Source: Microcaldota archaeon (GTDB lineage: Archaea; Micrarchaeota; Micrarchaeia; Micrarchaeales; CABMGC01). From it: 55,393 nucleotides of DNA. Positions 29,663 to 47,563 of the stretch are shown here, in pieces (position 1 is the first letter of the stretch; each line of letters opens with the position of its first letter). The notes beneath the pieces are model-generated. The model made no database searches, was not told where the DNA came from, and worked only from the letters and a program-made list of their open reading frames with translations. Both the position numbers and the translations under genes were made by a program. The DNA lies in NCBI GenBank assembly GCA_021791245.1, contig JAJYWY010000031.1, positions 1-55,393 of the forward strand, written 5' to 3'.

Positions 29663-29811
29663 TGGTATTTTAGTCATCACATTTATCCAAAATGGACCCA
29701 ATAAGAGATGGAGGCTATAACCTTACGCATATTTAGCAAAGGAGAAATCGCGGGGTAAACTTTAAAGAATCTGCGACATCTTGCGAAAAGATTACGCTTC
29801 TATAAAAATTT

Positions 29812-29843
29812 GGAGAGTCCGTGATCTGGACACGGGTCTTGAA
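29812..29843 (-). repeat. remnant of a tRNA-Pro(TGG) 3' half (putative distal attachment-site copy)
   Basis: ggagagtccgtgatctggacacgggtcttgaa matches the tRNA-Pro 3' half at 31264-31295 with 3 mismatches over 32 nt, same orientation. Confidence 0.75.
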
Positions 29844-29859
29844 TTTGGGTATTGCATCT

Positions 29860-31131
29860 TCAAATCTGCAGATTCAAAAGCCATTTCCAAAGTGGTATAA
29901 AATGTATGGTCTTTCCTGAGACATGCACCACCTTTTCATAATCCCAAGTTATAACTGTCAGTTTCACGCATTTTAATTTTCTTCCTGCATTCAGCAACGA
30001 TTCCACTTCCCTTTTCTTTAATTCTTTTTCGTTCGACACATAAGTTACTTGAAGCAGTTCTTTTATCCCATGGCTATCTCTTAGAACGAAGTCTACTTCC
30101 TCGCCGGATATATCCCTATAATAAAATATATCTGAGCTAATTTCCAATCTTTTCAATTGAAGGAAGACTAAATTTTCCATAAGTCTTCCCTTATCATATG
30201 GTAATCTCCAAGAGAGACCATTATCAGCCAAATAAACTTTTTTTGGCCATCCAGACCTGATGCTTATCTTCGTTGAATATCTATCAAGAAAAAAGAAGAT
30301 CATTGTGTCCTGCAGTTTTTCCACATAATCATAAGCAGTATTCCTACCAAATGGGACTCCATCCGATTTCAAAGAGTTAATTGCTTTTCTGATGCTCATT
30401 TCGCTTGCAAAACCCTGTGTTATAAAGTTGAAAATATACCTGGCAACTTCTATACTCTTCGCCTTCTGCCTTTCGACAAAATCCTTGAAGAATATTAATT
30501 CTCTGTATTCTGTCAAAAGTCTGTCTTTATCTCCCTTGCCTAGCACAACCTCTGGGAAGCCGCCAGATTCAAGATACTTATTAAGTAGGTTCTTTAATCT
30601 TCCTACATTTGCCATACTGTTTACGTTCATGCCGGACTCGCCCAATGCGTTAATATATTCAGAGAATGAGAATGGCAATAGTATGAAAGAGATACTTCTG
30701 CCGCGCAATTGCGTAGCCACTTCCCTTGCAAGTAACTTTGATGTAGAGCCAGTGGCATAAACTGAGTAGCCCCTGTCTAGCAAAGTCCTGATCAGGCTCT
30801 GCCAGTCATTTACATTCTGAATCTCGTCTAAAAATACTCTTTTTGCTTCTTTACCGCTGACCTCGGTAAATATCTCTGTTATCACTCTTAAAGTATCCGT
30901 GGCAGATATCCCTTTTAGGGCTATATCCTCAAAATCAAGGTATAATGTTTCAAATCTGTCATATTTGGATATCTCCTGCAACATCAATGACGTCTTACCT
31001 GCCCTTCTAGGACCTATTATTGCAGTTGCCTTACCGTGCATCTCCTTTAGTTTGAGTTCCCTATGCACAAGTGGTGGAATTTTGATTTCTAAGTAATGTG
31101 AGATATAATCCTTTACAAGGGAATTATCCAT
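29860..31131 (-). CDS. ATP-binding protein, AAA_14 + DUF4143 type
   Basis: AIIGPRRAGKTSLMLQEISKYDRFETLYLDFED; VFLDEIQNVNDWQSLIRTLLDRGYSVYATGSTSKLLAREVATQLRGR; C-term EEVDFVLRDSHGIKELLQVTYV. Confidence 0.88.
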   Translation of the reverse strand: MDNSLVKDYISHYLEIKIPPLVHRELKLKEMHGKATAIIGPRRAGKTSLMLQEISKYDRFETLYLDFEDIALKGISATDTLRVITEIFTEVSGKEAKRVFLDEIQNVNDWQSLIRTLLDRGYSVYATGSTSKLLAREVATQLRGRSISFILLPFSFSEYINALGESGMNVNSMANVGRLKNLLNKYLESGGFPEVVLGKGDKDRLLTEYRELIFFKDFVERQKAKSIEVARYIFNFITQGFASEMSIRKAINSLKSDGVPFGRNTAYDYVEKLQDTMIFFFLDRYSTKISIRSGWPKKVYLADNGLSWRLPYDKGRLMENLVFLQLKRLEISSDIFYYRDISGEEVDFVLRDSHGIKELLQVTYVSNEKELKKREVESLLNAGRKLKCVKLTVITWDYEKVVHVSGKTIHFIPLWKWLLNLQI

Positions 31132-31152
31132 AATTATCCATTAGTATTATAA

Positions 31153-31200
31153 CTGATACATTATTAGACTTTTTTGTCTCTCCAACTGAGACAATATCAG
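31153..31200. promoter_or_regulatory. nested inverted repeat upstream of the ATPase gene
   Basis: TTGTCTC-TCCAACT-GAGACAA (31174-31194) inside CTGATA (31153-31158)...TATCAG (31195-31200). Confidence 0.5.
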
Positions 31201-31263
31201 AATATGGAAAATATCAGATAGGGGTACAAGATGTACTTCCCATATATAACCCAAATGTAAAAC

Positions 31264-31336
31264 GGGGAGTCCGTGATTTGAACACGGGTCTTGAACTCCC
31301 AAAGCTCAAAGCCTAACCAAGCTAGCCTAACTCCCC
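31264..31336 (-). tRNA. tRNA-Pro (anticodon TGG)
   Basis: Minus-strand cloverleaf GGGGAGT TA GGCT...TGAGC TTTGGGA GTTCA...CCGTG TTCAAAT CACGG ACTCCCC. Confidence 0.92.
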
Positions 31337-31439
31337 GATAATTTACTTATCCCTAAGTACAGAATATGTGAAGGTAAGGTAATTAATCCTTTTTGGCTCT
31401 GGCCTCGTTTTATTTTCTTTTCATCTGCTCTAGCGCTAC

Positions 31440-33704: not shown

Positions 33705-34952
33705 TCATAATACTGCCTTGCTCTCTGCAACTAGCCTTCTCTGCCGCATAAGATATCTAAGTATTGCGCTGTTGTCTATCCACGTGGGAAGCCTTATCTC
33801 GAGCTTCGCCATCATGTATGCCAACGCATCGTTAAGCGTTGCAAACTCCTTTGCCTGGCTGCGCAGCGCTGCCCTTACGTGCTCCCTCACGTTCCATACG
33901 CCTACTGGAAGTGTGTATCCTTCGTGTACTTCCCTAAGTATTGTTACAGTAGCCTGCTTCTTCATCCTGTCAAGAAGCTCTGATACGGCGAGCCTTGCAG
34001 CGTAGTAGCACCCGCCTATCTCTGCATATGTCTTCCTGCCATCGAAGAACTCGTACGATGAGCCTATGTCTATGCTCTTGCTGCCCATGTTCCACGTAGT
34101 GTTAGGATACCACGCTTCGACAAGCTCGTAGCTCCATGCACCGGGAGCGAAGAGAACGAGCCATCTGTTGTCAAGGGAGTATGTCTCGAATACCATGTAA
34201 GAATCTATTGGCTCGTAAGTCTTCACCATAGCCAGGTTCTCCTTGCCCAGGGTGTCATCCACAGCAGTTATACTCCATCTAGTTGGGACGAACCTCCTCC
34301 TCTTGCCTGTGCCGAGGAGGCCTGAAGAGAATGCTTTCTGTATCTTAGAGACAGGGATTCCCCCTTTGTAGAGCTCAACTGCTGCCTGCGATGCATTCAT
34401 GCTGGTATCGCTGTGCGCTTTCTCAATCTTCCTGTTTGGGTATATGTTGCCCTGCAGTTCCATCTCCTTCATTCCTGCGCTGGGTCCATAAGGCTGGGAA
34501 TTGTCATCTAACGTTAGGTTCAGCATAGGCTTTCTTGTCAGAGTTATCGATGAATCTACATACTTGTCCGCCAGGGCAAGCTCTTCCACCATATACTGTA
34601 TCTTCCCTCCCAGAACGTCCTTAACGTCCACCTTTGCCATTCCCCTTACAAGCGTGGAACGGAAGCGGATTATGTCCTCTATGCTCTTCCCAACCCATTT
34701 TTCCGGGGTGCCGAGCAGCATCGTGTCCCCGAATACTGGTGGCACCATAGGCCCTATGAACACTTTTGGATATCCGAACCTGCCCACAAAGATGTCGGGT
34801 GGAGATGAGCCTTCTATCTTCGTACCGTTCATCATAGATATAGTGTTCATCTTGGCTATGTACTTAAGTATCGAAGGGTCCTTCATGTTCTTGTAGACGA
34901 CTCCTGTCCTGTTTATGGCATACTCCTGCATGGAACCAATAATATGTGGCAA
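33705..34952 (-). CDS. Nre-family archaeal DNA repair protein
   Basis: SSPPDIFVGRFGYPKVFIGPMVPPVFGDTMLLGTPEKWVGKSIEDIIRFRSTLVRG. Confidence 0.88.
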   Translation of the reverse strand: MPHIIGSMQEYAINRTGVVYKNMKDPSILKYIAKMNTISMMNGTKIEGSSPPDIFVGRFGYPKVFIGPMVPPVFGDTMLLGTPEKWVGKSIEDIIRFRSTLVRGMAKVDVKDVLGGKIQYMVEELALADKYVDSSITLTRKPMLNLTLDDNSQPYGPSAGMKEMELQGNIYPNRKIEKAHSDTSMNASQAAVELYKGGIPVSKIQKAFSSGLLGTGKRRRFVPTRWSITAVDDTLGKENLAMVKTYEPIDSYMVFETYSLDNRWLVLFAPGAWSYELVEAWYPNTTWNMGSKSIDIGSSYEFFDGRKTYAEIGGCYYAARLAVSELLDRMKKQATVTILREVHEGYTLPVGVWNVREHVRAALRSQAKEFATLNDALAYMMAKLEIRLPTWIDNSAILRYLMRQRRLVAESKAVL

Positions 34953-34986
34953 AACTAATTATTAATTTGCGCCAAAGATTGATAGT

Positions 34987-35433
34987 ATGCCTAAATATGT
35001 TGCTGATGGGGTCTGCGCCATAATAATGAACAAAGGAAGAATTCTGCTCCTCAATAGGAGGAATATACCTTTTCTTGTCAGAAACCCTGGAATCTGGTCC
35101 TTCCTGTTTGGCTCAATGGAGAAAGGCGAGAAACCGAATGAAACCGTGTACAGAGAGATAGAAGAAGAGACCAGATTGCGGAAGAAAGACCTCAAATTAA
35201 TCTCCAATGCGGGAAAGATGCTTCTCATAGATTTGCACAGCAGGAAGAGATGGTACAACTATACGTACTTGTTCGAATCCAAGTCAAGAAACGTTGAGAT
35301 AAACATTGAGAACAGCGCTTTCAGATGGGCATCAATCGAAGAAGTAAAAGAGCATAAGGGCTACACCAACATATTTTATAATGAAAAGAAGATATTAAAC
35401 CTATTAAGGGAAATGGATGAAAGACAACATTAG
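34987..35433 (+). CDS. NUDIX hydrolase
   Basis: GSMEKGEKPNETVYREIEEETRLR Nudix box. Confidence 0.85.
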   Translation: MPKYVADGVCAIIMNKGRILLLNRRNIPFLVRNPGIWSFLFGSMEKGEKPNETVYREIEEETRLRKKDLKLISNAGKMLLIDLHSRKRWYNYTYLFESKSRNVEINIENSAFRWASIEEVKEHKGYTNIFYNEKKILNLLREMDERQH

Positions 35434-36478
35434 TAAAAAATTAAGAAAGATATTCAAGAATGCGGAAGGGATAGACAAGCTTCTGCTGTTCAACACAAGC
35501 ATGCAGGACCCAAACTTCAAGTACCTTACAGGCTTCACTAGCGGCCTCTTCGAGGATACTGTTACAATAGCAGACCGCAGATCGGTTAAGGTCTATTCAA
35601 GCCCGCTTGAATATGGGGATGCAAAGAGGCAGGTGATGGAACCCGTAAAAGTTGTGCTCGTGAATGATGGTAAAAAATTCAAGAAGGATCTTGGCGGAGA
35701 ACTTCATGGAAAAGCCATAGGGATAAACGGGAATATGATGCCTTATGCAATCTTTAAGAGATTGAAAAAATACAAGCCAAGGAAGATAATTGATGTGAGC
35801 GAGGCATTCGCGTCAGCAAGGCAGACGAAAAGTGAATATGAAGTAAGGCAGATGAGATCAGCTGCATTGATAACCAAAAAAGCAATGGCAATGATACAGA
35901 GATATCTAAAGGAAGGAGTTACAGAACTGGAGATTGCTTCCAAGTTCGATGAAATATCAATGAGGCTTGGCTCCGAGAAGCCTTCGTTCAGCACCATAGT
36001 CTGCTTCGGCGCAAATGCCGCATATCCGCACCATGCCCCAGACAAGACGAAACTCGGGAAAGGCGATATGGTGCTGATCGATGCAGGCGCAACAGTAAAG
36101 AATTACTGCTCTGACATATCGCGCACATTCATCTTCGGAAAAGGCAGCAGGTACAAGGAGAAGGCCAGGATTATAGAGGTTGTAAGGGAGACGCAGCTGA
36201 AAGCCATAAGTGCCGCAAAGGCCGGATTCGGCAGGCTTGACTTGCATAATCTTGCCAAGGAGAACATAGACTCAGCAGACAATAGCAAGTACAAAGGCAA
36301 GTTCATCCACGGGCTTGGCCACTCGCTCGGCATAGAAGTGCACGATTCAAGCACGTCAAAGAAGCTCATCGATGGAATGGTGACAACGATAGAGCCTGGA
36401 ATATACGTGGAAGGACTGGGAGGGGCAAGGATAGAGGACGATATATTTATAACGAAGAAGGGGCACATAGTACTCTGA
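35417..36478 (+). CDS. M24-family Xaa-Pro aminopeptidase/dipeptidase
   Basis: DMVLIDAGATVKNYCSDISRTFIFG; FIHGLGHSLGIEVHD; VTTIEPGIYVEG. Confidence 0.9.
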   Translation: MKDNISKKLRKIFKNAEGIDKLLLFNTSMQDPNFKYLTGFTSGLFEDTVTIADRRSVKVYSSPLEYGDAKRQVMEPVKVVLVNDGKKFKKDLGGELHGKAIGINGNMMPYAIFKRLKKYKPRKIIDVSEAFASARQTKSEYEVRQMRSAALITKKAMAMIQRYLKEGVTELEIASKFDEISMRLGSEKPSFSTIVCFGANAAYPHHAPDKTKLGKGDMVLIDAGATVKNYCSDISRTFIFGKGSRYKEKARIIEVVRETQLKAISAAKAGFGRLDLHNLAKENIDSADNSKYKGKFIHGLGHSLGIEVHDSSTSKKLIDGMVTTIEPGIYVEGLGGARIEDDIFITKKGHIVL

Positions 36479-36613: not shown

Positions 36614-36805
36614 TTATTTTGATTTTGGCTTTTCTTTTAAGAAAAGTGAGCTTATTAGGAATATTATGCTTAGAATAAACTCGAACATTATAAGACTAAC
36701 ATCCGTAGAGCTTCCTCCTACTTTCCAATAGGCTAGGGCACTTGTCACCCATGCAATTACCAATCCAACCCCGACTCCACGAATATAATATTTTCTTATT
36801 TCCAT
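36614..36805 (-). CDS. small two-TM protein, paralogue of the adjacent ORF
   Basis: 63 aa YYIRGVGVGLVIAWVTSALAYWKV...FEFILSIIFLISSLFLKEKPKSK. Confidence 0.5.
   Translation of the reverse strand: MEIRKYYIRGVGVGLVIAWVTSALAYWKVGGSSTDVSLIMFEFILSIIFLISSLFLKEKPKSK
36727..36784. repeat. 58-bp direct repeat copy 1
   Basis: aataggctagggcacttgtcacccatgcaattaccaatcc(aacc)ccgactccacgaa; second copy at 36845. Confidence 0.85.
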
Positions 36806-36818
36806 TTATCATTCACCT

Positions 36819-37031
36819 TTACTTTGATCTCTTTCTTACAATAAAATAGGCTAGGGCACTTGTCACCCATGCAATTACCAATCCGATCCCGACTCCACGA
36901 ACATATGCATTATTTGTAAGATGTCCGACTGCGAAGAGTATCACGCTTAGAATCAACTCTAATAGTACAAGTGCTAGTATAAGCTTCGGATATGTATTTA
37001 TTTTATTGATGTTTGTCTTTATTTTATCCAT
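36819..37031 (-). CDS. small two-TM protein, paralogue of 36614..36805
   Basis: MDKIKTNINKINTYPKLILALVLLELILSVILFAVGHLTNNAYVRGVGIGLVIAWVTSALAYFIVRKRSK. Confidence 0.5.
   Translation of the reverse strand: MDKIKTNINKINTYPKLILALVLLELILSVILFAVGHLTNNAYVRGVGIGLVIAWVTSALAYFIVRKRSK
36845..36902. repeat. 58-bp direct repeat copy 2
   Basis: Near-identical to 36727..36784. Confidence 0.85.
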
Positions 37032-38504: not shown

Positions 38505-40571
38505 CTATGGCGAATATCCTGAAAGGGCAATGGAATTCAGCACCACCGTTACAGAGCTTAACGACATTGCGAACGCTGCAAGAAGCGGCAATACCCCGTA
38601 TATGCTTAGGCCGAAGAACGGCACAAGGGCCCCTGCTGCGACTGGTATCAGCAGCGTGTTGTATCCGAAAGCCCAGAAGAGGTTCTGCCTTATCTTCCCC
38701 ATTGTGGCCTTGCTTATCATTATAGATGCCGCGACATCGTTTATATTGTTCCTCACAAGGACTATGCCCCCTGCTTCTATAGCTACGTCAGTTCCTGCCC
38801 CCAGTGCTATACCTACGTCTGCCTTCGCAAGCGCAGGCGCATCGTTTATTCCGTCGCCTACCATCGCGACTGTTCTCCCTTCTTTCTGCAGTTCTTCTAT
38901 CTTTTTCAGCTTGTCCTGCGGCTTTGCCTCCGCAATGACATTCTCTATCCCAAGCTTTTTTGCAACAGCATGCGCAGTCTTTGCGTTATCCCCGGTTATC
39001 ATGAATATCTCTATTCCTTCCTTTGAGAGGGCTTTTATTGCACCTTTGCTCTCATCCTTTATCTTATCTGCTATGGCTATTATTCCGATTACCTTCCCAT
39101 TTACGCCGATAATTACCGGAGTCTTTCCTTCGTTCGCCGCAGATGCAATGCCCTTCTCCGCGACTATTGGAACGTCCTTGAACATGTCCCTGTTTCCTAC
39201 TATTATCCTTTCTCCGGATTTGCTGACTGCATATATGCCCCTCCCCTCCATGTATTTGAAGCTGACAGGAAAACCATAATGCACCTTGATCCTGTGCGCA
39301 TATTCTATTATTGCCTTCCCAAGTATGTGCTCTGAATTTGCCTCCGCAATGCATGCCTTCCCTATGACTTCCCTCTTGCTGTGCCCCTTAACAGCAATCA
39401 CTTCGGTAACTTCAGGCTTCCCTTTGGTGAGCGTGCCGGTCTTATCGAATATTATTGTATCTACTTTCGAGGCTGTTTCAAGCGCTTCACCGCTTTTTAC
39501 CAGAATGTGGTTCCTTGCAGAAAGCCCAGATGATACCATCAGCGCCGCAGGGGTGGCTATGCCCAGCGCACATGGACACGCTATTATCAGCACGCTTACA
39601 AAGGCCAGTATGGCATACGGCATTGGCGCGTTCCCCACAGATAGCCATAGAATGAATGATGCAATCGCAATCAGTATCACTATGGGTACGAAATATGAAG
39701 ACACCTTGTCTACAAGCCTCTGGACAGGGACCCTGCTTGATGCAGCATCCCTTATTATGCTTATTATCTGCGACAGCGCAGTATCCTCGCCAGTCTTCTG
39801 CGCTTTTATCTTTATTGCGCCTGACACGTTTATGGTTCCTGCCATGACCTTGTCCCCTGCCTTCTTCGGAACTGGCATGCTCTCTCCTGTTATCATTGAT
39901 TCGTCTGCCTCTCCGGAACCATGGATTACCGTGGCGTCAACAGGGATCCTTTCGCCGGGTTTTACAAGAAGCACTGCCCCGCGTTTTAGTTCTGAAACGT
40001 CCACGTCGATTATCTTGCTGCCAATCACTGCATGCGCAGTTTTAGGCTGGAGCTTTATTATCGCCTCTATGGAAGATGTAGCACGCACTTCTGCAAGCCT
40101 TTGCATGTACGTTCCTGAAAGTATAAGTGATATTATCAGGGCTGATGTGTCGAAATACAGGTTTTGCATCGGCACCATACCCGGAAAGAACACGACGAAT
40201 GAGCTGTATGCCCATGCAGCGGTTGTCCCAATCGCTATGAGCGTATCCATATTGCTCGATCTGTTCTTCATGGCGTCGATGGTGCCCATATAGAACCTAT
40301 ACCCTGAATAAAACTGCACAAGAGTAGCTAGGGCGAACATTATGTATTTCTCATATGGAAGCCCTGTAAACGCGTATGTTAGGAGAAGTATTGCTATGGA
40401 AACAGGCCATGCAATGATAAGCGCACGTTTCAGCTCTCTCATCTCCCTTTCGGGTTTCTCGAACTGAAGCCTGCATGTCGCAGAGCAGAAGTAATACTTC
40501 CTGCCTTCCTTAGAGGAAGTTAAGTCCGTATGCTCGTCAACGTACATTCCACATACAGGATCGTATGCCAT
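38505..40571 (-). CDS. copA: copper-type P1B ATPase with N-terminal YHS domain
   Basis: DPVCGMYV...YYFCSATCRLQFEK YHS domain; CPC motif in ACPCALGIATPAALMV; DKTGTLTKGKPEV. Confidence 0.93.
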   Translation of the reverse strand: MAYDPVCGMYVDEHTDLTSSKEGRKYYFCSATCRLQFEKPEREMRELKRALIIAWPVSIAILLLTYAFTGLPYEKYIMFALATLVQFYSGYRFYMGTIDAMKNRSSNMDTLIAIGTTAAWAYSSFVVFFPGMVPMQNLYFDTSALIISLILSGTYMQRLAEVRATSSIEAIIKLQPKTAHAVIGSKIIDVDVSELKRGAVLLVKPGERIPVDATVIHGSGEADESMITGESMPVPKKAGDKVMAGTINVSGAIKIKAQKTGEDTALSQIISIIRDAASSRVPVQRLVDKVSSYFVPIVILIAIASFILWLSVGNAPMPYAILAFVSVLIIACPCALGIATPAALMVSSGLSARNHILVKSGEALETASKVDTIIFDKTGTLTKGKPEVTEVIAVKGHSKREVIGKACIAEANSEHILGKAIIEYAHRIKVHYGFPVSFKYMEGRGIYAVSKSGERIIVGNRDMFKDVPIVAEKGIASAANEGKTPVIIGVNGKVIGIIAIADKIKDESKGAIKALSKEGIEIFMITGDNAKTAHAVAKKLGIENVIAEAKPQDKLKKIEELQKEGRTVAMVGDGINDAPALAKADVGIALGAGTDVAIEAGGIVLVRNNINDVAASIMISKATMGKIRQNLFWAFGYNTLLIPVAAGALVPFFGLSIYGVLPLLAAFAMSLSSVTVVLNSIALSGYSP

Positions 40572-40580
40572 TCCCTTCCC

Positions 40581-40715
40581 TTACTTGGCGTACTTCGATG
40601 GGTTCTTGTCGAAAGAACTCTTGCACTGCGCAGAGCAGAATAAGTACTTCTTATTTTTATACGTGCTTGAGAACTTGCCTGAGCTCACTTCCATCCCGCA
40701 CACAACATCTTTCAT
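40581..40715 (-). CDS. 44-aa stand-alone YHS-domain protein
   Basis: MKDVVCGMEVSSGKFSSTYKNKKYLFCSAQCKSSFDKNPSKYAK*; in-frame upstream ATG at 40727 also possible; absent from the ORF track because of its length. Confidence 0.75.
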   Translation of the reverse strand: MKDVVCGMEVSSGKFSSTYKNKKYLFCSAQCKSSFDKNPSKYAK

Positions 40716-40777
40716 ATATCCACACATAACATTCTCGTGCACGTTTTATATCCTTTTGCATAATACTAATTGGTTTT

Positions 40778-41947
40778 ATGGCATCGCTGATTGATGATCT
40801 TCAGGAAGAGGGATTCGTGCTTCCGGATTTCAGGAACAGCAACCTGGAGGTTGCGAGACAGCTGGCTGCGTCTGACCATGGAAACATGATTGGCGACAAA
40901 GAAAAGAAAGTATTCCTTGTCATAGACGGATTGGGATACAATCTCTTCGAAAAAGTAGTGAAGAAGGGAAATGCTTTCGGCATAGAACTTGACGATGCAA
41001 GAAGGATAACTACCGTATTCCCATCAACCACCATGAACGTGATGTCAAGCATATACAGCGGCAAGACAACCGCGGAGCATGGCCTGCTTGCAAATAACGT
41101 CTTTATCAGGGAATACGGAATGCCGGTAAATGCCATAGGCCTTTCCCCGACAGCGCTGCGTGGATCGCACGGTAACAAGATCCTTCCAGAATTCATATAT
41201 CCTAAGAGCGACGTTATAAGCGCAATAAAGGGTAGGGGAAAGAAGCTCAAGATAATAATAAACGAGACCTTATCGTATTCCGGGATGAGCAGCTTCATGT
41301 TCCAGAAAGAGGATATAGTAAAATTCGTCACATTCGAAGACATGCTTGTAAAGATAAAGAAACTTGTAGAGTCTGGAGATACCGACTTCATAATGGCGTA
41401 CTTCGATATGCTAGACCATGCGGAGCACGTATTTGATCCAATATCGGAAGAGGTGGAAGAGAGCCTGGCAGGCTATCTGATTTCGCTTGAGAGGATACTG
41501 CTTCCAGCGCTAAAGGGAAGCGGATATGACTTAATAATAACCGCAGACCATGGGCACATAAGGACTCCTTTCGTGCGCGATATTAAGATACTGCCAGGTG
41601 ACAAGATGCTGGACTTTCTTATAACACCCCCTTATGGAGAGTCAAGAGTATCCTTTTTCATGGTCAGAGACAGCAGCAGAAGAATTTTCGAGGAATATGT
41701 TGAGAAGACCTTGGGCAATGCGGGGAAGCTCGTGGACGCGGACGAGCTTATCTCTACAGGCATATTCGGGAAGAAAAAAATAGACGAGAAGTTCAGGTAC
41801 AGGTTCGGCACTCACGTGCTCATAATGAAGGGCGACAATGCATTTGGATACCTTTACCCTGGCGTGGAAAGAAAGATATTCGAGACAAAAGGAGGGCACG
41901 GAAGCCTGAGCGCGGACGAGATGTACGTGCCACTTATATTGGTGTGA
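40778..41947 (+). CDS. alkaline-phosphatase superfamily nucleotide pyrophosphatase/phosphodiesterase
   Basis: KVFLVIDGLGYNLFE; TTVFPSTTMNVMSSIYSGKTTAEHGLLANN; ITADHGHIRTPF. Confidence 0.88.
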   Translation: MASLIDDLQEEGFVLPDFRNSNLEVARQLAASDHGNMIGDKEKKVFLVIDGLGYNLFEKVVKKGNAFGIELDDARRITTVFPSTTMNVMSSIYSGKTTAEHGLLANNVFIREYGMPVNAIGLSPTALRGSHGNKILPEFIYPKSDVISAIKGRGKKLKIIINETLSYSGMSSFMFQKEDIVKFVTFEDMLVKIKKLVESGDTDFIMAYFDMLDHAEHVFDPISEEVEESLAGYLISLERILLPALKGSGYDLIITADHGHIRTPFVRDIKILPGDKMLDFLITPPYGESRVSFFMVRDSSRRIFEEYVEKTLGNAGKLVDADELISTGIFGKKKIDEKFRYRFGTHVLIMKGDNAFGYLYPGVERKIFETKGGHGSLSADEMYVPLILV

Positions 41948-41951
41948 TATT

Positions 41952-42890
41952 GTGATATTGGTTACAGGTGGAACAGGGCACGTCGGAAGGCATCTTGTAG
42001 ATGCACTTGTCAAGAATGGAGAGAATGTTAGGGTATTCGCCAAAGATACAAAGTATGAGAGGAATGATGTTGACTTTGTATGTGGCGACCTGCTTGACGA
42101 GGATATTGTAATGAAGGCTGTTCATGGGGCAGACGTGATATACCATCTTGCGGCGATCGTGGACTATGTGCCTGCTCCAGACAAGCTCATGTACGACGTA
42201 AATGTTGTTGGAACACAGAACATGCTCAAGCACTCCAATGCCAAGAAATTCGTCTATTTGTCTTCCACTTCCGTGTACGGGAAGAGACATGAGAACCCTG
42301 CAAATGAGAATACACGGCTGAATCCGAGCAGCTATTACGGAAAGACCAAGGTGATTGCGGAGAAGATGGTTCTGGAGAAAGGAGGAGTCTCGATAAGGTC
42401 TCCTGTAATATACGGACCCGGATTCAACGAGGGTTTCTACACTATAATCGGACAGATACAAAAGGGTACGATGAGGATAATAGGAAATGGGAAGAACAGA
42501 ATGCAGTGGATACATGTAAGCGATCTCATAGATGCACTGCTTCTTGCAAAGGAGAAAGGAAAGAATGGCGAAGTATACCTAATTGCAGGAAAGGAAGTCA
42601 TGACGCAGGAGGAACTGCTTGGGCTGGTGGCAGAATGCCTGGGCGTGCAGAAGCCTGTGAAACACGTTTCAACAAATGCAGCATATGCGCTCGCATACTA
42701 CAAGATGTTCTCTGCGAAGCTGATGCGAAAAAAGCCGAAGCTCATACCAGGGCACATAAGTAGCATTGTAGCTGACAGAACATTCGATACATCGAAAGCC
42801 AAGAGCGAACTTGGATTCGAGGCAAAAGTTGATTACAAGCAGGGAATAATGGAGATGGTCGGCGAATTCAAGGGCAGCGTCAGCGAATAG
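41952..42890 (+). CDS. NAD-dependent epimerase/dehydratase (extended SDR)
   Basis: ILVTGGTGHVGRHLVDAL; YLSSTSVYG...SSYYGKTKVIAEKMV. Confidence 0.92.
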   Translation: MILVTGGTGHVGRHLVDALVKNGENVRVFAKDTKYERNDVDFVCGDLLDEDIVMKAVHGADVIYHLAAIVDYVPAPDKLMYDVNVVGTQNMLKHSNAKKFVYLSSTSVYGKRHENPANENTRLNPSSYYGKTKVIAEKMVLEKGGVSIRSPVIYGPGFNEGFYTIIGQIQKGTMRIIGNGKNRMQWIHVSDLIDALLLAKEKGKNGEVYLIAGKEVMTQEELLGLVAECLGVQKPVKHVSTNAAYALAYYKMFSAKLMRKKPKLIPGHISSIVADRTFDTSKAKSELGFEAKVDYKQGIMEMVGEFKGSVSE

Positions 42891-42927
42891 AAACTCGCAA
42901 ATGCCTTCAAATAAAGGATAGGCGCAA

Positions 42928-42976
42928 TTACGAGATCAGCTTCTCTACTCCAGGGAATGCAGCGAGCGCATTCTCC
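42928..42976 (-). repeat. displaced duplicate of the secY 3' terminus (encodes ..[15 protein letters not shown])
   Basis: ttacgagatcagcttctctactccagggaatgcagcgagcgcattctcct matches 43481-43529 with 3 differences, all synonymous in the SecY frame. Confidence 0.9.
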
Positions 42977-42980
42977 TTGG

Positions 42981-43196
42981 TTAATTGTAGGCGTAAGCTT
43001 TCTCCTTCTTTTTATTAAGCACGACTTCAAGAATATCTGATATTGCCTTACTGGCATCAAGTATTTCTATTTCTATTGGGGTTCCGCGTTTATTATAATG
43101 TGTTATGATGTTTCCTTTTTGCTCTCCGAAATCAGGCTTGCCTCTGCTAAGCTCTATTAGAAGTATGTCTGTTTTTGGATCGTACCTATATTTCAT
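42981..43196 (-). CDS. DUF2283-type antitoxin
   Basis: MKYRYDPKTDILLIELSRGKPDFGEQKGNIITHYNKRGTPIEIEILDASKAISDILEVVL. Confidence 0.85.
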   Translation of the reverse strand: MKYRYDPKTDILLIELSRGKPDFGEQKGNIITHYNKRGTPIEIEILDASKAISDILEVVLNKKKEKAYAYN

Positions 43197-43433
43197 ACCT
43201 TTCACTCTTTGCCTTATACACTGTTATGATTATACTTCTTCTTATTTATTTGTGTTCTTCGACGATTACTCTAACCACGTAACCATTCACACTCTCTTTT
43301 GATATATCTTCCTGGAACTATGGCCTTCGGCTATGCTCGTGGGAGTTGCTATTGCCTCTTTTACTAGCAGTTCAGAAATTTCGTATTTCTTCATCCTCTC
43401 CTTTGCATGTTGGGTTATTTCAATCTCCGCCAT
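43186..43433 (-). pseudogene. DUF4258-type toxin, disrupted by a frameshift and an in-frame stop
   Basis: MAEIEITQHAKERMKKYEISELLVKEAIATPTSIAEGHSSRKIYQKRV* (frame 1), then +NGYVVRVIVEEHK*IRRSIIITVYKAKSERYEI* in a second frame; overlaps the DUF2283 start. Confidence 0.75.
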
Positions 43434-43480
43434 GAGATAATTAATCAGACAAAAGCTAAATTACTTCTGAGTGCAGAAGC

Positions 43481-44932
43481 TTATGAAATCAGCTTCTCTA
43501 CTCCTGGGAATGCAGCGAGCGCATTCTCCTGCTCCAGCTGCTTATAGACCATGTAGATTATGCCTACCAGAAGCATTATTCCTATTCCGCTGCCTATTGC
43601 GCCTGTTATCGTGGCCATTGCAGCCAGGAAGCCGACTATTAGGCTGCCAAGGGTTATTATCGATGGGATGTATTTGCTTAGCACGTTCTCCACTGTCCTT
43701 GGATCCCTCCTGAATCCAGGTATCTGCCACCCTACGTCTCCGAGCTGAGCAGCAAGAGACTTTGCGTCCTGCCCTGCCATGGTCGTCCAGAACTTTCCGA
43801 ATATAACGCAGAGCAGCATGAGCGAGAGCGTAAATGTTATCACATGCACCCATTCCGGAAGATAGAATACGCCTCCGAAAGGCGAGTACATCGTTATCTG
43901 GCTAGTCATTATATAAGTGAAATACTGGCTGTATCCTCCTATTGCGCCGGAGGCCGCATATGCAGATGAATATGGAAGCGGAAAGTTAGGTGAGATAAGG
44001 TAAAGGAGGCCTCCGGAAAGCGCATATGTAGTTCCTGCAGGGGTGTAGCTCCCTATGAACCTGATGATGCTTGCGCCTGCACCTGCGTAAGTAGCGGTCA
44101 TTGTGAACAGTAGGGACAGATTAAGGACGAGCGCAGTTGCAAGCACTACGGGCAGCACGCTTACGTAAAGCAGGGGGATTGGCAGCCTGCCCCCGATTCC
44201 GCGGAGCTGGCTGAACACCAATGGTATCTCTAGATTTGTTTCATAAAGATATATTGCTATAAGCAGTATTATTATCGCGAAGAAGAGAGGGCCGAATGCA
44301 AGTATGGCGTTCGGTATTGCAGCTGCGCCTCTTCCGCCTATCGCTGCCATAGCTTCTGGAAGCAGTATCCCGAAAGTTCCCCCTATTATCGAGAATGCAA
44401 CATTGCCAACTATGAACATGTTTATTCCCGATGTTATTCCATACTTGCTCATCATCTCGTCAAGGTATATTATCGCGAGAGCGCCCAAGAACAGCTCGAA
44501 GACAACTATTCCGAATAAGTTTGGGCTGAGAAGTGTGACCTGGCCGGTAGCCGTGAATATATATGCCTCTATGGCAGCTATGACTATTGCCACAAGCTTC
44601 TGCATGCCCTGCATCCTTGACCTGTCCTCGGGATTGTTCTGGTCTATCTTTATTATGTCAGCGCCGCTTAGGAAGCTGAATACTATGCCTGCGACCACTA
44701 TTGGAGAAATTCCGACTGTTATAAGCGTGCCTATCCTTGCCGCAAATACTATGCTGATGAGCTGCAGCGCTGCCTGGCTCGCCACTGCAGTGTTTACTCC
44801 TGCGGCAGGAACGCTGAAGAGCACGAAGTATACTGCCATGATTATGGCAGTCCATTTTACCTTCTCCTTTATAGACAGGGGGCCGTTGGGTTTCTTTATG
44901 CCTGGAAGTACTGATAGGATTGGATCCATGCT
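43481..44932 (-). CDS. secY: preprotein translocase subunit SecY
   Basis: [45 protein letters not shown]; multi-TM; [28 protein letters not shown]-type C-terminus. Confidence 0.93.
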   Translation of the reverse strand, partial: [483 protein letters not shown]

Positions 44933-44956
44933 AGATAATGAGACCATCGGCACCAT

Positions 44957-46000
44957 CTACTTGATTTTTCTCTTTGGTATTTTTATGGAAAGTATATATC
45001 TATTTCTCTTGCCCAGCGATATTCCTGCAAGCACCTGCCTGTCAGTCATTGTTGTCGCAAGACCCTGGAAGAACGCCTTTGCAATATTTGCATTTCCCAT
45101 GCTAGACGCCTCCTCGGAGATGCGCATTGCGATTGCAGTAAAGCTTGCGCCCTTCTTCATTGTTATTTTCTCTATGCCGAAAACAGGGGACAGCTTGCCT
45201 GCCAGCAGGAATAGGTCTGCATTTGAAACCATGTGCGCAGTCTCTGATCCTGCCAGGTATGCCATCCTGGGCAGCTCTTCCGATATCTTTGCTTCATAAA
45301 GGGGCGATGAGAATATGGAGAAGTATTCTTGGGATATGCGCGAAGAGCCTGTATGCGAAAGCAATGCATTCTCAGAGAATAGCATTGGGAACTCCGATAG
45401 TTTTGCTTTTCCATCCCCTGCTTCGTAATGCGCTGCCCCATGCTCAGAGATGAACTGGCATGCCTCGTCGCCATTGCATATGCATTTGACCTCGCTGGTC
45501 GAAACTCCCTTTCCAAGCATGCCTGAAAGGTAGCCGGATATGAGCGCAGCCTCAAAGAAATGCACCTTTGAGGATATCCCAGAAAGCGCATTGCGCCTCT
45601 CAAAGGAGCTTATTATTGTGCGTGATTCGGAAGAATGGTATGTGACTTCCCCCATGCCACCGTTGGAAAGCATGTTGAAGAGCTTCTCCGGGCTTCCATT
45701 CCTGTGTATATCGTATGCCTCTCTGCCAATGCTGAACGCCTTGGCCGAAGCCATCTTCCTTAAGTTGAATGACAGAAGATAAAGCAGCTCGGGAAAAAGC
45801 AGCGCCTTCCTTGTAAGCCCTTTCCCGTATGCGAACTCCGATGCGTTATACGAAAGGATGTTGTCCAGGTCGTTTCCTTTTTTGTGCTTCTTTGATGTTA
45901 TGCCTACCTTTCCTTTCCTCTGCGTGCCCTTTATCATGTATATGTATGCATCTTTTTTGGATTTTGCGCCGGCTTTTTTCGCAACCCTGCTGTTTGTCAT
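44957..46000 (-). CDS. V4R-domain-containing protein
   Basis: FEAALISGYLSGMLGKGVSTSEVKCICNGDEACQFIS; basic N-terminus. Confidence 0.65.
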   Translation of the reverse strand: MTNSRVAKKAGAKSKKDAYIYMIKGTQRKGKVGITSKKHKKGNDLDNILSYNASEFAYGKGLTRKALLFPELLYLLSFNLRKMASAKAFSIGREAYDIHRNGSPEKLFNMLSNGGMGEVTYHSSESRTIISSFERRNALSGISSKVHFFEAALISGYLSGMLGKGVSTSEVKCICNGDEACQFISEHGAAHYEAGDGKAKLSEFPMLFSENALLSHTGSSRISQEYFSIFSSPLYEAKISEELPRMAYLAGSETAHMVSNADLFLLAGKLSPVFGIEKITMKKGASFTAIAMRISEEASSMGNANIAKAFFQGLATTMTDRQVLAGISLGKRNRYILSIKIPKRKIK

Positions 46001-46527
46001 TTCTTTCCCGTATGTTTCCTTTTCTTAATGTATATAGAATTATTCTTTATCACGCATTTCGAAGATATTTGCTTTGTGTTATAGAATATGAAGAACGTGT
46101 TCAGGAGTATAAGAAGCGAGAAGATTAGCGTCTGGTTGTTGTCCACGGAGTAAAGCACATTGCTTACGGATAGAGTATTTAGCCCCAGGGTATACATTAT
46201 GGTTGCTATTATTGGCGCCTGGCATCCGCATCCTGCTACTATTCCGCCCAACATTGTGCTCACCAGGCTGAAACTGCCGTATATATCATTCTTTATGTTT
46301 GCGAAGTTGAAGTTTACCAGGAATACTGTAACTGTAATCAGCACTGCAGAAGTGAATGTAAGCAGGTATGTGAGATATGCGACATTCATTGGCTGCGATA
46401 CTACCGGCCCGCTGCTTAGGGCTATGTTGCTGAATATTATATAATAGACTATGAGCGATGCAATAAGCAATAGTAGGTATTTTGGCTTTGTCAGTATGTA
46501 GATCAGCATCTGCGTTACGTTCTGCAT
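45997..46527 (-). CDS. multi-pass membrane protein with GCGCQAP motif
   Basis: 176 aa; about 5 TMs; MLGGIVAGCGCQAPIIATIMYTLG. Confidence 0.6.
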   Translation of the reverse strand: MQNVTQMLIYILTKPKYLLLLIASLIVYYIIFSNIALSSGPVVSQPMNVAYLTYLLTFTSAVLITVTVFLVNFNFANIKNDIYGSFSLVSTMLGGIVAGCGCQAPIIATIMYTLGLNTLSVSNVLYSVDNNQTLIFSLLILLNTFFIFYNTKQISSKCVIKNNSIYIKKRKHTGKK

Positions 46528-46531
46528 TGTG

Positions 46532-47563
46532 TCACACGTAATGGTTCTGCGCTATTATCTGCTTTATTGCAGGAAGGCTGCATACAGGAGCTGCGTTGTT
46601 TATCGAAGGGCATAACATAGCTATGTAAAGGTCTGCGGCAGCGTATTCAGTCCATCCAAACTGATCATTTGGAGCTGCAAACTCGGACAGTATCTGCGCA
46701 TGCGTCATATGTGCTATCTCAAGATTTGATGCTGATGTTGGAGTCGTGTTCCCGAAATCTATGGCATCAGCTCCTCCCACCTGGTTATCGCCCCAGATTG
46801 TATAAGGGGTGCCCTGGAAGCTGTTAAGCTTCAGTATGAGCGAAAATGCGTTCTCGTACGTAACGTTTCCTGTGGCGTTTACCTCCTGCTGTATTGTGGA
46901 GAGAGGCTGGAGCGAAAAGCCTCCGGTTATTGGCCCTGTATCCTCAAATGCTATGAAGTTAATGTATTTGCTTTGATAATGCGCACCTGTATCGAGAGTA
47001 GAGATGTTGTAGTTGTCCTGCGACCAGTATATCGTCGGCACGTCACCATCGCCAAATGAGCTGTATCCTTTGTAGAGCGCGGTAAAGTTTCCGAACCTGC
47101 TCAGCGCAAGCGCCATGGCCCACCTGTTCTCTCCGCAGAAGATGCACGTTATGCTTCCAAGATATATTACAGAAGGCTTGCCGTTTGCATAGAATGCAGA
47201 TACGTTGACCGTCTGTGCGCCTACTTCATTGACAAGGGAATGGTTCAGGTACATCATGCCAGCTTTCTCAAAGTACTGCAGAGGTGCATTGTTTATTACG
47301 CCAAGCTGGGTTTCGTTGAATGGCTGGTCTATTCCTGCAAGAGTCTGAGGCGTCTGTGCTGCAGAGACTTGCGTAGACGAACTAACATTATGTATGATTG
47401 ATGTGACGTTATTCAACTCAAGATTCAGGTTGGATATGCTTGCAAGGGAATATGCCCCTATTAATATCCCGATTATGCCTATTACTAAAGCTACGGAAGA
47501 TATTATCTTGAACATTCTTATCTTATCAGAGAATTCCTTCTTTGCGGATGATGCCTTCGCCAT
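46532..47563 (-). CDS. DUF929-family secreted thioredoxin-like protein
   Basis: N-terminal TM; VIYLGSITCIFCGENRWAMALALSRFGNF (CxxC), FIAFEDTGPITGGFSLQPLS. Confidence 0.75.
   Translation of the reverse strand: MAKASSAKKEFSDKIRMFKIISSVALVIGIIGILIGAYSLASISNLNLELNNVTSIIHNVSSSTQVSAAQTPQTLAGIDQPFNETQLGVINNAPLQYFEKAGMMYLNHSLVNEVGAQTVNVSAFYANGKPSVIYLGSITCIFCGENRWAMALALSRFGNFTALYKGYSSFGDGDVPTIYWSQDNYNISTLDTGAHYQSKYINFIAFEDTGPITGGFSLQPLSTIQQEVNATGNVTYENAFSLILKLNSFQGTPYTIWGDNQVGGADAIDFGNTTPTSASNLEIAHMTHAQILSEFAAPNDQFGWTEYAAADLYIAMLCPSINNAAPVCSLPAIKQIIAQNHYV

Follow-up and report, generated by a model that had tools for sequence, protein, structure and literature searches.

A toxin-antitoxin gene pair between two copies of the secY 3' end in a micrarchaeon: a probable remnant of a site-specific integrative element

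In the genome of a tiny acid-loving DPANN archaeon we found a toxin-antitoxin gene pair, its toxin broken, lying between two copies of the 3' end of secY (positions 42928-43529 of the window, that is, of the whole 55,393-nucleotide stretch analysed here, contig C1 of an 838.6-kb assembly of 42 contigs that is 92.6% complete). The pair has kin in cassettes, some with an integrase and some without, at tRNA genes of other Micrarchaeota. We consider it probable that the arrangement is a decayed, CIME-like site-specific element belonging to a family of small tyrosine-integrase elements in Micrarchaeota that bear DUF4258-DUF2283. On this reading a very small mobile element, in a DPANN genome near 0.84 Mb, made use of an essential translocon gene and apparently rewrote its end.

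The 3' end of secY is duplicated

The putative integration target, secY, is an open reading frame of 491 aa on the minus strand (43481..44956). Its last 15 sense codons and stop, with one further base of the gene, form the gene-proximal copy of a direct repeat (repeat B, 43481..43529, minus strand), which reads GGAGAATGC-GCTCGCT-GCATTC...TAA and is the functional, attL-like end of the gene. The gene-distal copy (repeat A, 42928..42976, minus strand) is a displaced, attR-like secY end in the same orientation, beyond which, to the left of 42928, the sequence continues as TTGCGCCTATCC... One copy completes the target gene and the other is displaced, and, as the initial annotation had it, the repeated sequence is the end of a protein-coding gene and not of a tRNA gene. 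The two copies are identical at 46 of 49 positions, or at 47/50 when the repeat is taken as 42928-42977 and 43481-43530, with a spacing of 553 bp. The three codons that differ (CCA/CCT, ATT/ATC and TCA/TCG) are all synonymous, also as first described; the duplication itself stood as well, with the count of repeated codons corrected from 16 to 15 before the stop. The end of the repeat coincides with the secY stop codon, and only foreign genes are bracketed. A terminator-like hairpin following repeat B was discounted (z -0.99).

The duplicated secY end is by far the largest direct repeat within 40000-47000, its core occurs in only these two copies in the whole genome, and the match is well beyond what chance would give. 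In the 29 relatives first compared, the best downstream match to the last 49 nt of secY reached 20-28/49, and in 80 Micrarchaeota secY loci, each taken with as much as 8 kb of flanking sequence, no match of the secY end to downstream sequence scored above 15, where the score in the host is about 41. The duplication is real and unique in this 80-locus sample. An ordinary toxin-antitoxin locus combined with an artefact of assembly or binning, in which two places were fused at a repeat, is highly improbable: the assembly is a draft, but the copies differ at three sites and lie together on one 55-kb contig, and comparable anatomies are present in independently assembled genomes.

The repeats enclose a toxin-antitoxin pair and no integrase

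The interval between the repeats (42977-43480, 504 bases) is AT-rich, with a GC content of 37.1% where secY has 49.3% and the gene that follows 46.5%, and holds only two genes, both on the minus strand. The first is an open DUF2283 antitoxin gene (42981..43196; PF10049, E=1.4e-12), whose start overlaps the end of the second, a DUF4258 toxin frame (43189..43433) that matches the first 40 positions of the Pfam model with its N-terminal part (PF14076, 5e-06). The two genes are adjacent, as in DUF4258-DUF2283 toxin-antitoxin pairs, and the toxin frame is interrupted by a frameshift at about 43290-43305 and by an in-frame TAA at 43246-43248, so that the toxin is a pseudogene in this assembly. The initial annotation was right about which genes lie between the copies; that the toxin gene is broken is a correction to it. 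From the secY stop to the toxin start runs what appears to be an element-derived leader (43434..43480, minus strand), which contains CTCAGAAGTAATTTA.

As had been noted, there is no integrase within the cassette: we found neither an integrase frame nor a stub in 42977-43480, which has no space for one. The interval thus departs from a tyrosine-recombinase integrative element in the strict sense, in which the integrase lies inside, and has the anatomy of a CIME, with attL-like and attR-like repeats kept, although putative in their activity, and integration and transfer genes absent. A casposon was rejected, since that class needs Cas1 and terminal inverted repeats and the cassette holds only two small open reading frames between repeats that are direct.

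A candidate crossover core

Within each repeat lies a 6-bp dyad around a 7-bp spacer, GAATGC-GCTCGCT-GCATTC, at 43508..43526 in repeat B and 42955-42973 in repeat A, which we regard as a candidate crossover core. On the gene side of the spacer the copies are identical for about 10 bp; on the far side the likeness extends through the second arm to the stop, and all three differences fall there. This is the pattern that a crossover in the spacer would leave. A dyad of this kind arises in 2% of shuffles and in 12-16% of codon-preserving versions (P 0.12-0.16), and because of the latter figure we count it as a suggestion only; a 6/7/6 dyad is present in the secY tails of 4/80 relatives. When the core pattern was sought as an att site elsewhere in 40 genomes, five matches with 3 mismatches were found besides the copies in the window and none was an att site: three correspond to an ENALVAF motif encoded by an RNA polymerase beta-like gene, the fourth lies in a DEAD-helicase-like gene and the fifth at an unrelated locus.

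We also weighed the possibility that the tail of secY was duplicated in tandem, with no recombinase involved, and that the toxin-antitoxin pair entered between the copies by other means. What is seen here is indeed just a 49-bp repeat with few differences and no integrase, in a region where the host's downstream gene order is rearranged. Such a history would require two unrelated events at one point, however, and the same gene pair is bracketed by target-end repeats elsewhere in the phylum. Moreover, had one copy drifted freely, three random changes would all be synonymous with P of about 0.02-0.03, which lends moderate weight to the earlier proposal that both copies evolved under coding constraint. 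We judge the tandem duplication quite unlikely.

Under the preferred reading, that of a decayed integrative element, an incoming circle carrying a copy of a secY 3' end would have recombined with the chromosomal secY 3' end, the crossover probably falling in GCTCGCT between the inverted arms. The tail brought by the element would have become the working end of the gene (repeat B) and the former end would have been pushed to the far side (repeat A), if the direction was as we suppose. We infer that a tyrosine recombinase was the integrating enzyme; the integrase would afterwards have been lost, or may have been supplied from elsewhere, and the toxin would have degraded since integration.

Homologous cassettes occupy tRNA genes in other Micrarchaeota

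Support for this reading comes from the distribution of the gene pair. DUF4258-DUF2283, or DUF2283 alone, adjoins tyrosine integrases at tRNA-Leu(TAG) in three genomes (G021, G052 and G060), whose integrases are 88-92% identical, and in a fourth, G005, the pair or DUF2283 adjoins the same integrase at a contig end. These tRNA-Leu(TAG) elements resemble the secY cassette in carrying homologous genes at the 3' end of their target and in the 7-bp spacer of the candidate core, the T-arm GAGAG-TTCAAAT-CTCTC (found at tRNA-Leu and on contig C27 of the host) having the same spacing as the secY dyad. They differ from it in that the integrase is present, the target is a tRNA T-arm, and their DUF2283 proteins are 53-58% identical to that of the secY cassette. 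In two further genomes the pair stands between copies of the tRNA-Leu 3' end next to the remains of an integrase: in G031 the copies are 20 bp, exact and 607 bp apart, with a 35-aa integrase stub, and in G051 they are 797 bp apart and the integrase is again reduced to a stub. Such stubs show that the integrase was lost there by deletion.

One genome, G036, has a cassette at tRNA-Asp in which no integrase was seen, bracketed by a 31-bp pair of repeats and 1.9 kb long. Its gene pair is among the closest to that at secY (DUF2283 68% over 62 aa, DUF4258 56%), its orientation relative to the target is also the same, and it shares the 15-bp leader motif CTCAGAAGTAATTTA; apart from its target and size, it is unlike the secY cassette in having an intact toxin and an additional Peptidase_A4 gene. 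By identity alone the closest DUF2283 is that of G064 (71% over 56 aa), around which no bracketing repeat was found. Homologous cassettes are thus present at three targets, tRNA-Leu, tRNA-Asp and secY, in every case bounded by a copy of the target's 3' end, and an integrative-element reading is well supported by this kinship. Against decay from an integrase-bearing element stand the cassette itself, which has neither integrase nor stub, the fact that no integrase is known to recognise secY, the absence of an element at secY from the other genomes compared, the want of a strict empty site and the G064 gene just mentioned. In viral contigs we found no relative of the integrase alignment and none of DUF2283.

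Two of these loci have further features. The G036 cassette at tRNA-Asp(GTC) spans L197 3481-5424, and its additional gene encodes an acid protease. At tRNA-Leu(TAG) of G052 (L194 5490-7739) the att sites are in tandem: a full integrase and the toxin-antitoxin pair are followed by a second integrase fragment with a copy of the tRNA end, the repeat measuring 343 bp.

Other integrase-less cassettes in the same genome

Specific matches, and the stretches around them, revealed other cassettes in the host. In the window itself (29810-31337) an AAA_14-DUF4143 ATPase gene (29860-31131) is the sole gene between tRNA-Pro(TGG) (31262-31337) and 29812-29843, where 32 bp of the tRNA 3' end recur at 91% identity, with no integrase in the cassette. 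On contig C9 (27517-29175; L215/L216) an AbiEi-AbiEii operon at tRNA-Leu(CAG), likewise without an integrase, is flanked by the tRNA end and its duplicate, which match exactly over 28 bp and lie about 1.6 kb apart. Integrase genes reside elsewhere: one on contig C36 starts at tRNA-Glu(CTC), one on contig C27 contains an in-frame stop, with a tRNA 3' end occurring three times in its vicinity, and on contig C34 a tRNA-Leu(TAG) is followed by an integrase-like start at the contig end. None of the resident integrases has a known specificity for secY. On C27 (L072 9300-15010) a tRNA with an apparent intron precedes the degraded integrase and two more 3'-end copies; this tRNA gives a 113-nt Rfam match at C27:76830-76942 and was missed by ARAGORN.

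These findings raise a different account of where the integrase came from, in which the secY cassette is non-autonomous, made of att, one defence or toxin-antitoxin operon and att, never had an integrase and was moved in trans by co-resident integrases. Site-specific integration is common to this account and to decay in place; the two differ on the origin of the integrase. Movement in trans would fit three integrase-less, tightly bracketed, single-operon cassettes in one genome, the integrase genes at tRNA-Glu and on C27, and a secY cassette with no room for an integrase and no stub of one. It fits poorly with the stubs of G031 and G051, which indicate deletion, and with the lack of any resident integrase known to act on the secY core, in which the spacer is GCTCGCT and not the TTCAAAT of the tRNA T-loop; nor did we see any instance of one cassette moved between sites. 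We regard it as a possible but rather unlikely origin, and hold equally doubtful the broader proposal of a Micrarchaeota class of integrase-free cassettes shuttled in trans by co-resident integrases and using both an essential protein gene (secY) and tRNA genes. Seen alongside the cassettes at tRNA genes, the one at secY suggests a mode of spread in these reduced genomes in which a single toxin-antitoxin or defence operon travels between att sites with no integrase of its own, and raises the question of whether such cassettes are dead remnants or parasites of the integrases of other elements.

Comparison with known elements

Restoration of a target gene by a carried coding 3' end is known from the lambdoid phage 21 and from e14 at icd of E. 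coli. These are prophages with an integrase, whereas at secY there is a half-kilobase remnant.

CIMEs are decayed elements that keep attL and attR and have lost their integration and transfer genes, and were defined for bacterial ICEs and IMEs (PMC5704250). The secY cassette is alike in being an interval between attL/attR-like repeats at the 3' end of a gene, with integration and transfer genes absent; it is unlike them in being archaeal, 0.55 kb long and limited to a single gene pair, with no transfer genes identified in its kin and with a mobilizability that is putative. In Thaumarchaeota, 14 of 68 mapped elements lie in the 3'-distal regions of protein genes, and in one case the stop codon of the target was replaced by element sequence and the gene end rebuilt (PMC6563490). 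Those elements share with the present one the use of the 3' end of a host protein gene; secY is absent from their list of targets, their att sites are mostly under 26 bp (PMC6563490) against the 49 bp of the secY repeat, and here the host is a micrarchaeon and the element holds no integrase. The portions of the literature available to us contained no report of secY as an integration target, a search on archaeal secY, integrase and attB returning off-topic work only, and nothing was found on such elements in the literature on Micrarchaeota integrases. We therefore describe the cassette as a CIME-like, integrase-less relative of the small Micrarchaeota tRNA elements, new in its target, size and host.

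The secY locus in relatives

A secY match was obtained in 60/60 genomes searched, the nearest relative being G005 (70%); the relatives sharing the gene are Candidatus Micrarchaeota. A second secY tail was found in none of the 80 relatives (0/80; none of the host's genus was among the genomes searched), and no element whatsoever was present where secY ends in the relatives examined. The initial annotation had expected an empty site in some relatives and other cassettes in others, and had proposed looking for a trans-acting tyrosine recombinase; no other cassettes were found at secY, and neither was a trans-acting integrase with specificity for it. Its view of the arrangement as the footprint of a site-specific element at secY is partly supported: it agrees with the attL/attR-like anatomy and with the kin at tRNA genes, and draws nothing from the secY ends of relatives. 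Integrases in four secY loci (L085, L097, L101 and L140) were set aside, as each is kilobases distant from where secY ends. Rearrangement of the genes downstream of secY in the host prevents a strict empty site from being demonstrated: in G005 and G004 secY is followed by the homologue of 33705-34952 on the opposite strand, and in the host this block has the reverse orientation, with about 6 kb of other genes separating it from secY.

We then compared the tail of SecY with its body. The last 15 residues of the host protein are 80% identical to those of L090 and 73% to those of L085, with bodies only 57-58% identical, and the nearest body (L081, 72%) has a tail only 33% identical. Among 323 background pairs with bodies in that identity range, not one has tails as much as 73% identical, and the reversal between tail and body in the host is the most extreme among 58 species. 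The SecY tail thus looks mosaic, which we take as supporting evidence only, 15 residues being few. Because this unusual peptide is encoded in both repeats, one integration event is not enough to account for the mosaic; we assume that it would need either a previous exchange at this site or a donor that already had the tail. The earlier suggestion of an incoming tail from a different lineage gains independent but small support from the mosaic. L090 was rejected as the donor at the DNA level, its tail being about 77% identical to either copy (by eye), and viral contigs gave no match to the back-translated secY tail. Separately, distant second SecY-like proteins, 29-36% identical and possibly paralogues, are encoded in four genomes (G006:C40, G018:C4, G031:C56 and G047:C18).

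Three further features of the window were noted. The G005 secY-adjacent block is inverted at 33705-36478, and helicase, copper ATPase, phosphatase and epimerase genes stand between it and secY. Just downstream of tRNA-Pro(CGG), at 36716-36905, there are two 72-bp direct repeats, 89% identical and 118 bp apart. Finally, just upstream of the copper ATPase gene a 53-aa open reading frame (40456-40742) with a copper-ATPase-like metal-binding start repeats part of the ATPase (71% over 45 bp).
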